Assembly: GCA_903891085.1 (NCBI GenBank)
Contig: CAITDJ010000149.1
Coordinates: forward strand, 1 to 64,000
DNA: 64,000 bases
Source of the DNA: an uncultured Bacteroidota bacterium
Lineage (GTDB): Bacteria > Bacteroidota > Bacteroidia > Bacteroidales > F082
Direction: 5' to 3'
Made by a program: the position numbers and the translations under genes. Shown piece after piece: positions 17,756 to 19,904 of the stretch (the stretch's first letter is position 1; every line of letters starts with the position of its first letter). The notes below the pieces were generated by a model. That model was not told the DNA's origin, ran no database searches, and saw only the letters and a list, made by a program, of their open reading frames with translations.

Positions 17756-18397
17756 ATGCTTCCCGGTCCCAATTACATTTATAAATGTCCCAACTGCGAA
17801 ACCCTCGTTTCAAAAGGAAGTCTGATGAGTGGTAATACCATTGGCGCCGATTTCTATTCGGATGGAAGTTTTTTCGCGCCCATGATGCCGGTGTTTCCTC
17901 AGATCACCATCTGCCATGATTGCGATACCATTTTCTGGCTCAATGAAACCAACGAAACAGGGATGTGGCATTGGGGCGAAAAAACCAATCCGGCATGGGA
18001 GAATGCCGTTTATGCCCGTTTTCTCTCTATTGAAGAATATTTTTCGGCCCTCGAAATGAACCTTGCCAACAACAAAGCAGATGAATTTTACATCAGACAA
18101 CAAATCTGGTGGGGCTTTAATAATGCCCACCGTTACAAAAATGAAAGCAATACCGATGCATCAGAAAACATCCTGTGGACAGTCAATATCCATAAATTAC
18201 TTGGTTTGCTCGATAGTAGTAATAATAACGACCTCATCATGAAAGCTGAACTTCACCGCAACCTCGGAAACTTTGACACATGCCTTCAGGTGCTTGACAG
18301 CATTGTGAATCCGGAAGTTGAATGGCTGAAAAATATCATGATAAAAGCCTGTAAGGCAAAAAACAGAAAAGTCATACAGCTAAAACAAAATACTTAA
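17756..18397 (+). CDS. Hypothetical protein with two Cys-pair (zinc-ribbon-like) motifs
   Basis: A 213-residue soluble protein I do not recognise. Its first 60 residues contain CPNC (11-14) and CHDC (53-56), a spacing that fits a zinc ribbon. After DTIFWLNE there is an aromatic-rich stretch (MWHWGEKTNPAWENA, IWWGFNNAHRY). The C-terminal third (LHRNLGNFDTCLQVLDSI) resembles one TPR-like helical hairpin. It carries no signal peptide. It precedes the lipoprotein/radical-SAM pair by 82 bases on the same strand, but no shared function can be claimed. Possible roles include a metal-binding adaptor or a nucleic-acid-binding protein. Both are guesses. Confidence 0.7.
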   Translation: MLPGPNYIYKCPNCETLVSKGSLMSGNTIGADFYSDGSFFAPMMPVFPQITICHDCDTIFWLNETNETGMWHWGEKTNPAWENAVYARFLSIEEYFSALEMNLANNKADEFYIRQQIWWGFNNAHRYKNESNTDASENILWTVNIHKLLGLLDSSNNNDLIMKAELHRNLGNFDTCLQVLDSIVNPEVEWLKNIMIKACKAKNRKVIQLKQNT

Positions 18398-18479: not shown

Positions 18480-18845
18480 ATGAAAAGCAAATGGATCAGA
18501 AATATACTCCGCGGATTGAGTGTCACCTCCATGGTATTTATCTTTCAGGCTTGTTATGGCTCACCACAGGACATGAAATATGATATGTTTATCGAGGGTC
18601 TTGTGAAAGCCAGTGCAACCGGCGAGCCGATTCAAGGAATCAAGGTTTCACTTACCGACACAGATCAATATGAATTTACAGACGAAATGGGCAAATTTTC
18701 CTTTTATACCGATCTCTCCGGGAGCTATCCTATCCTTTTTGAGGATACTGACGGTGGTCAAAACGGGGTTTTCATGGCCGTTGATACGGTGCTCATTCCC
18801 GAAAACAATTCAGTGTACTTCGAAATGTTACTGGATCGCCCATAG
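18480..18845 (+). CDS. Putative lipoprotein of the radical SAM/lipoprotein pair
   Basis: A 121-residue exported lipoprotein: a basic N-terminus (MKSKWIRNILRG), a hydrophobic segment, and a lipobox cysteine at residue 25 (IFQACYGSP). The mature domain (IEGLVKASATGEPIQGIKVSLTD, TDEMGKFSFYTD) is a carboxypeptidase-regulatory-like beta sandwich. The stop codon at 18843-18845 is followed without a gap by the ATG of a radical SAM enzyme, so the two are almost certainly co-translated. From memory, TIGRFAMs describe a Bacteroidota 'rSAM/lipoprotein system' with this arrangement. The proposed idea is that the lipoprotein is the enzyme's substrate or partner, but no product is known. The N-terminal NYGS/CYGSP neighbourhood of the lipidated Cys is conserved in that family as I recall it. 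Confidence 0.8.
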   Translation: MKSKWIRNILRGLSVTSMVFIFQACYGSPQDMKYDMFIEGLVKASATGEPIQGIKVSLTDTDQYEFTDEMGKFSFYTDLSGSYPILFEDTDGGQNGVFMAVDTVLIPENNSVYFEMLLDRP

Positions 18846-19904
18846 ATGTTCGGACTATTTAAAAACAGAATCTTCCGGCGATTTAAAAAAACCGAGGCAA
18901 GCATTCACGAATTGAATTATCTTTTCTGGGAATGCACCACACGCTGCAACCTGAATTGTTTGCATTGTGGCAGTGATTGTTCCAAGGACAGTTCGACTCA
19001 GGACATGCCTCTCTCCGACTTTCTGCTGGCGCTCGACACGATTGAACCCAAGTCAGAAAACCTAATGGTTGTGCTCACCGGAGGCGAACCACTCATGCGG
19101 AAAGATATTGAACAATGCGGACGCGAAATCAGAAAACACGGAGCGCGTTGGGGAATGGTCACCAACGGATATCTATACAACCAGGACAAACACAATGCCT
19201 TGATTAATGCCGGAATGGGTGCATTGACGATCAGTCTCGACGGCCTCGAAATCAACCACAACTGGCTGCGAAATAATAATAACAGTTTTGCCCGGACCGA
19301 CAGTGCCATTGCCCTGGCCAGAGGTTCAACCCGATTGAATTTTGATGTAGTGACCTGCGTAAACGCCAGAAATATTGATGAGATTCCGCTGATTTACAAT
19401 TATTTACTTTCGCAAAGCGTGAAAGCCTGGCGGTTGTTTACGATTGTCCCGATAGGAAGGGCCGCAAATAGTCCGGACCTGGTGTTGACAAATCAACAAT
19501 TCAAATACTTACTCGATTTCATCAGCCACACAAGAAAACTGAAAACGATCGACATCAAATTCAGTTGCGAAGGCTACGTGGGGCCTTATGAATCAAAAGT
19601 GCGCGATACAGGATTTTTCTGCAGGGCCGGCATCAATATCGGTTCGGTACTGATCGATGGTTCCATCTCAGCCTGCCCCAATATCGACCGAAGTTTTGTG
19701 CAGGGGAATATTTACACCGACAATTTTTTTGAGGTGTGGAACACGAAATTTCAGGTTTTCCGCGACCGGAAGTGGACAAAAACCGGCCGATGTGCCAACT
19801 GTAATCAATACGCTGATTGTCAGGGAAACGGCATGCATAACTGGTATGGTGACAAAGCAAACGTGCTGGTTTGCCACAACGAAAAAATAAATCCTGCAGG
19901 ATAA
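18846..19904 (+). CDS. Radical SAM enzyme with SPASM-like domain, lipoprotein-associated
   Basis: A 352-residue cytosolic radical S-adenosylmethionine enzyme. The [4Fe-4S] motif CNLNCLHC spans Cys34-Cys38-Cys41, preceded by Cys30. GGEP (79-82) binds SAM, and TISLDG (128-133) is a typical barrel strand. The C-terminal region has Cys259, Cys277, Cys316, Cys319, Cys325 and Cys343, the pattern of a SPASM domain with auxiliary Fe-S clusters, as in peptide-modifying maturases. Cys-rich auxiliary domains usually act on peptide substrates, so the neighbouring lipoprotein (zero-base spacing) or its precursor is a natural candidate. The actual reaction is unknown. No peptide-precursor gene or transporter is adjacent. 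Confidence 0.9.
   Translation: MFGLFKNRIFRRFKKTEASIHELNYLFWECTTRCNLNCLHCGSDCSKDSSTQDMPLSDFLLALDTIEPKSENLMVVLTGGEPLMRKDIEQCGREIRKHGARWGMVTNGYLYNQDKHNALINAGMGALTISLDGLEINHNWLRNNNNSFARTDSAIALARGSTRLNFDVVTCVNARNIDEIPLIYNYLLSQSVKAWRLFTIVPIGRAANSPDLVLTNQQFKYLLDFISHTRKLKTIDIKFSCEGYVGPYESKVRDTGFFCRAGINIGSVLIDGSISACPNIDRSFVQGNIYTDNFFEVWNTKFQVFRDRKWTKTGRCANCNQYADCQGNGMHNWYGDKANVLVCHNEKINPAG

Follow-up and report, generated by a model that had tools for sequence, protein, structure and literature searches.

Organization of the locus

The window, that is, the whole 64 000-nucleotide stretch of contig CAITDJ010000149.1 analysed here, comes from an uncultured bacterium of the order Bacteroidales. It carries a two-gene cassette coding for a lipoprotein precursor and a radical SAM/SPASM enzyme. 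The features of the cassette are reported in table 1. A preliminary description of the window had reported this pair as fused back to back with no gap. The open reading frames and the sequence confirm the pair, the zero spacing and the common frame; the word 'fused' does not hold, since a stop codon lies between the two genes.

Table 1. Features of the lipoprotein/radical SAM cassette in the window.
Feature	Positions	Strand	Basis
Candidate substrate: lipoprotein precursor of 121 aa, similar to TIGR04134 but scoring below its cut-off	18480..18845	+	ORF, profile score, BLAST cluster
Signal peptide, residues 1–24, unusually conserved; possible enzyme leader	18480..18551	+	70% mean identity over residues 10–30, 72 sequences
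Lipobox and putative target, F22-Q-A-C25-Y26-G27-S-P29	18543..18566	+	invariant residues in 72 relatives
Transthyretin-like/CarboxypepD_reg-like mature beta domain, approximately residues 36–118	18585..18833	+	AF2 model, fold matches, weak Pfam match
TAG stop (18843–18845), then ATG start (18846–18848), same frame, gap 0	18843..18848	+	sequence; 0-bp gap also at 33 loci with tandem genes
Radical SAM/SPASM enzyme, 352 aa, TIGR04133	18846..19904	+	469.8 bits; fold matches
CxxxCxxC, Cys34/38/41, then Gly42-Ser43, common to PlpX/GDL group	18945..18974	+	column counts
GGEP, residues 79–82	19080..19091	+	sequence, alignment
GYVGPYE, residues 243–249; G-Y-Y-G-P-Y-E counterpart in PlpX/GDL group	19572..19592	+	alignment
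SPASM cysteines 259, 277, 316, 319, 325, 343; Gly at 329, where Cys is expected	19620..19874	+	Pfam SPASM, column counts

Among the relatives with tandem genes, the 0-bp gap recurs at 33 loci and a 4-bp overlap is found at 17. The adjacency is therefore not due to chance and reflects ordinary translational coupling. The lipoprotein gene is on the opposite strand in 10 other relatives (L056, L057, L061, L065, L067, L070, L072, L073, L077 and L083). Two TIGR04133 enzymes (L160 and L161) are encoded in tandem, with an FQACYG lipoprotein directly upstream of the second only. Comparison of the neighbourhoods of 189 enzyme loci revealed no third conserved gene beside the cassette. In the window, the upstream gene (17756–18397) codes for a 213-aa protein with CxxC pairs, which has weak zinc-ribbon and TPR-like matches only, matches no NCBIfam family and is not kept beside the cassette.

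The radical SAM/SPASM enzyme

The enzyme is a member of the NCBIfam family TIGR04133 (rSAM_w_lipo), with a score of 469.8 bits (469.3 in the genome search) for a cut-off of 425. It is also above the cut-off for Pfam Radical_SAM and for SPASM (PF13186; 33 bits, cut-off 21.5). The 'rSAM/lipoprotein system' mentioned in the preliminary description does exist and corresponds to TIGR04133 and TIGR04134, both classified by NCBIfam as 'hypothetical equivalog' with no reaction assigned. We found no paper naming TIGR04133, TIGR04134 or lipoprotein spliceases; the main splicease survey, Scott et al. 2022 (Chem), was outside the search and may mention the family.

The CxxxCxxC cluster, the GGEP motif and the number of further cysteines, six, had been correctly described. 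The enzyme departs from the seven-cysteine SPASM pattern including CX3C, position 329 being occupied by Gly, Ala or Ser in clades A–C. Cysteines 45 and 171 are, according to column counts, nearly confined to the TIGR04133 family. The best fold match of the enzyme model is a SPASM peptide maturase, and its closest folds include the SPASM peptide maturases anSMEcpe, SuiB, PqqE, SkfB and ChlB. As the enzyme lacks a signal peptide, its reaction should precede export of the lipoprotein.

Gly42-Ser43 and a number of the SPASM cysteines have been lost from three divergent TIGR04133-like enzymes (L157, L158 and L159; about 33% identity), which all belong to a single family of Bacteroidales. No XYG lipoprotein is encoded near them.

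The lipoprotein and its conserved lipobox

The lipoprotein scores 28.2 bits against TIGR04134 (lipo_with_rSAM), below the cut-off of 39.8; the scores of its close relatives range from 31.7 to 39.7. As previously described, it has a signal peptide and a lipobox typical of bacterial lipoproteins: a basic n-region, a hydrophobic core (a helix over residues 2–24 in the model) and the sequence F22-Q-A-C25, from which Cys25 is the predicted site of lipidation and cleavage. This cysteine is also residue X of an X-Tyr-Gly-x-Pro motif.

An alignment of 72 related lipoproteins, a check suggested together with the preliminary description, revealed that Phe22, Ala24, Cys25, Tyr26 and Gly27 are the only invariant residues; Gln23 is present in 71 of the 72. 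Mean identity is 92% over residues 22–29 and 70% over residues 10–30, for 34% in the mature domain. Other lipoprotein-like ORFs of the same contigs display no preference for Gln at –2, Tyr at +2 or Gly at +3.

The mature domain is modelled with a pLDDT above 90 over most of its length. It matches the folds of the carboxypeptidase D TTL domain and the SusC NTE domain, with a weak Pfam match to CarboxypepD_reg-like. In five relatives (L058, L063, L066, L074 and L075) a short acidic tail replaces this domain and the motif is kept.

Association of the enzyme with the XYGxP motif

A homologue of the lipoprotein, belonging to a single BLAST cluster, adjoins the enzyme at 154 of the 189 loci. A protein with a signal peptide and YGxP is adjacent to 145 of 174 enzymes, for 1–6% at control positions (2/70, 2/47, 11/170 and 1/77). 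When the vicinity of the enzyme was screened with an automatic filter, such a protein was found at 160 of the 189 distinct loci. The remaining 29 were read by eye: in about 14, XYG is followed by a different residue or the partner had escaped the filter, and the rest consists of six contig ends, three loci of a divergent clade, one CYA and five unexplained cases. Wide occurrence of the enzyme without the lipoprotein, which would have spoken against modification of the lipoprotein by the enzyme, was looked for, and a partner was found at nearly all loci.

In the wider family, the Tyr-Gly pair is constant and residue X can be Cys, Glu, Lys, Val, Met, Leu or Ala. At the core TIGR04133 loci, Tyr-Gly-x-Pro is not fixed to the cysteine (AEYGTP, MYGTP, VYGSP) and is sometimes present in two or three copies. 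The motif may stand beside the lipobox cysteine, further along, sometimes many residues away, or on unrelated scaffolds. Two such partner types, which form clusters separate from the main lipoprotein family, are the CVYGSPE type, found at 9 loci, and the KYGIP/EYGVP type, found at 6 loci. A signal peptide, a cysteine and XYGxP are all that the unrelated scaffolds have in common. By comparison of these sequences, the pairing of the enzyme with the XYG site is strongly supported.

Some TIGR04134-related proteins (L252 and L262–L266) have a signal peptide without cysteine that ends in A-QYG; QYG would be their mature N-terminus.

Distribution of the cassette

The enzyme is present in 97 of 393 sampled Bacteroidales genomes (about a quarter) and in only 3 of 396 genomes of a phylum-wide sample. 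TIGR04134 is found above cut-off in 57 of the 393 genomes, 54 of which also carry the enzyme; the other three (G619, G697 and G759) have background radical SAM matches only. The TIGR04134 proteins that are unlinked to the enzyme in enzyme-positive genomes mostly contain XYG (L255–L259 and L261), with the exception of L260.

Among the genomes without the enzyme, G697 and G759 have lipoprotein homologues that contain no Tyr-Gly. That of G759 resembles the Tyr-Gly-less paralogue L260 of an enzyme-positive genome, so that G697 alone counts, and this single case is suggestive. Two observations count against the function proposed below: G619 has an A-QYG protein, and G442 has an FEACYGPP lipoprotein without the enzyme. 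Other inspected FQACYG and FEACYG hits located away from the enzyme in the 393 genomes are not signal peptides of the family. The frequency of a YGxxP-type DNA pattern across the genome of the window was uninformative, being no higher than that of a reversed control.

The cassette also occurs in Spirochaetota, on a plasmid of Treponema saccharophilum (L166:2607-4083), where an Mpi-family invertase adjoins it, and on a contig labelled Treponema (L068). These occurrences suggest horizontal transfer.

Relationship to spliceases and other maturases

A search of the PDB with the enzyme sequence gave distant radical SAM matches only. Outside TIGR04133, the nearest enzymes found by tblastn against plasmids are an Agathobacter enzyme, a Nostoc member of TIGR04103 (Nif11-class maturase 3, corresponding to IPR026482) and GDL-type maturases. 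The peptides encoded beside them contain VMYGTG (Agathobacter), ALYGLPPELF (Nostoc) and PYGVAI, LYAAGI and similar sequences (GDL). In a maximum-likelihood tree (C20, PMSF; midpoint-rooted for drawing, with long branches, and AhbD left out), a branch with a support of 96/97 separates TIGR04133 and these maturases from NirJ, TIGR04053, TIGR04347, MftC, PqqE and others. Gly42-Ser43 is common to TIGR04133 and the splicease-like group, and Gly42 occurs in none of 12 other enzymes. A G[YF]xGxYE segment preceding SPASM is found in most members of both groups.

PlpX, a member of IPR026482, has an RRE protein as its partner (PMC11002830). The site of tyramine excision by PlpXY is X-Tyr-Gly: MYG and LYG are its natural forms, an engineered GYG is accepted as well, and a short tag tested with PlpXY ends in LYGLPI (PMC10533398). 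The window's cassette resembles this system by its XYG(xP) partner, by the position of the enzyme on the same side of the 96/97 branch, and by Gly42-Ser43 and G[YF]xGxYE. It differs by the lack of a Nif11 leader and of the seventh SPASM cysteine, by an identity of 27% and by a reaction that here is a predicted one. No RRE partner similar to PlpY is conserved at the 189 loci, although one could be encoded elsewhere. The TIGR04103 score of the enzyme is 114.3 bits for a cut-off of 725 (a true member, L165, scores 853), lower than its NirJ2 (129) and AhbD (124) scores. The alignment columns occupied by R196, F198 and R205 in the family contain Q, Q and N in the splicease-like group. Because of this low score, the missing RRE partner and cysteine and these three residues, the enzyme is not classified in the PlpX family; our claim is that it probably works alike.

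The cassette also resembles the TIGR04133/TIGR04134 systems: the enzyme is above cut-off, and the lipoprotein lies directly upstream, has the transthyretin-like domain and contains XYGxP. It differs from them by a lipoprotein that does not reach the TIGR04134 cut-off and in which the motif has a constant place at the lipobox (FQACYG) instead of following it. The maturases of GDL-motif/DUF1843 peptides (TIGR03913) share the same neighbourhood in the tree, and their peptides have XYG or XYA near the N-terminus; unlike lipoproteins, these partners are small peptides of cytoplasmic type, often three per locus. NirJ/NirJ2 and AhbD, from the haem d1 and haem b pathways, have comparable profile scores and a similar radical SAM plus SPASM/twitch architecture. 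Their substrates are small molecules, however, and NirJ has no Gly42-Ser43 and stands across the 96/97 branch.

Proposed function of the cassette

The preliminary description had proposed that the enzyme modifies the lipoprotein, naming neither a site nor a chemistry. This proposal gains strong comparative support from the pairing of the partners, the conservation of the lipobox and Tyr-Gly, and the shared XYGxP, from which modification is deduced. We consider it highly probable that the enzyme acts at XYG. For the cassette as a whole we lean, with moderate confidence, towards a lipoprotein maturase that is directed by XYG, acts before export and most likely resembles the spliceases. Tyramine excision as the specific reaction is about an even call.

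The cytoplasmic enzyme would bind the unexported precursor, probably using the conserved signal peptide as a leader, and would act on X-Tyr-Gly-x-Pro at the lipidated cysteine or immediately beyond it, in the window on Cys25-Tyr26-Gly27-Ser-Pro29. Splicing would remove part of the backbone, with a predicted loss of C8H9NO (approx. 135 Da). The normal lipoprotein pathway could then take over the modified precursor for export, lipidation and cleavage, and the product in the window's clade would be a keto-homologated, lipidated cysteine. When the two proteins were modelled by AF2 as a single chain, reading through the TAG, the leader was not positioned within the enzyme; the leader and target site have a pLDDT below 50, and the model therefore gives no docking information.

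The constancy of Tyr and Gly, together with the variability of X and of the following residue, makes a side-chain crosslink unlikely and would favour chemistry at the Tyr backbone. A sactipeptide- or ranthipeptide-like thioether or other crosslink at Cys25, controlling lipidation, could be imagined from the invariance of Cys25 in the window's clade and from the best fold match, a SPASM peptide maturase. Since X is also Glu, Lys, Val, Met, Leu or Ala elsewhere, we rank this idea low, and the distance that can separate the motif from the lipidated cysteine makes it very improbable. The reading in which the lipoprotein is not modified at all is improbable too. The enzyme would then make a small molecule or cofactor bound by the lipoprotein, Tyr-Gly serving in export or sorting, in line with the scores of the small-molecule enzymes NirJ2 and AhbD and with the common binding-type fold of the mature domain. 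It accounts poorly for a motif that is kept by partners with unrelated scaffolds or no mature domain, for the lack of a similar preference in lipoproteins of the same contigs and for the absence of another conserved gene nearby.

A more serious alternative, if still rather unlikely, is another one-residue chemistry at the Tyr of XYG, such as epimerization, oxidation or side-chain loss, that leaves the backbone unspliced. All the evidence from the motif fits this alternative equally well, and R196, F198, R205 and the SPASM cluster, which are unlike those of the splicease-like group, as well as the lack of an RRE partner, are in its favour. Splicing is favoured over it by the grouping of the nearest enzymes with the PlpX family in the tree and by the invariant Gly after Tyr combined with a variable X, which is the XYG rule of PlpX and, by analogy with PlpXY, the pattern to be expected for splicing.

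The present analysis gives a probable target site and a proposed reaction to a family known in NCBIfam by number only. If splicing does take place, radical-enzyme backbone editing would act on cell-envelope lipoproteins, and splicease-like chemistry would extend to exported proteins whose leader is an ordinary signal peptide. The ketoamide residues of spliceotides confer protease inhibition (PMC10373908), which, speculatively, would suggest a role in the envelope.

Other candidate loci

On a plasmid of Agathobacter rectalis (L168:2733-4185), an unannotated short peptide ending in GPVMYGTGVRM is encoded just upstream of a radical SAM enzyme nearest to TIGR04103, and an MFS transporter gene follows the enzyme. 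This is a candidate spliceotide-like locus. At two further loci (L169:2153-2866 and L170:2028-2743), DUF1843 'GDL' peptides with N-terminal XYG, XYA or XYM (PYGVAI, LYAAGI, MYMATM) are encoded beside TIGR03913 enzymes, and these N-terminal motifs suggest that the chemistry may be related.
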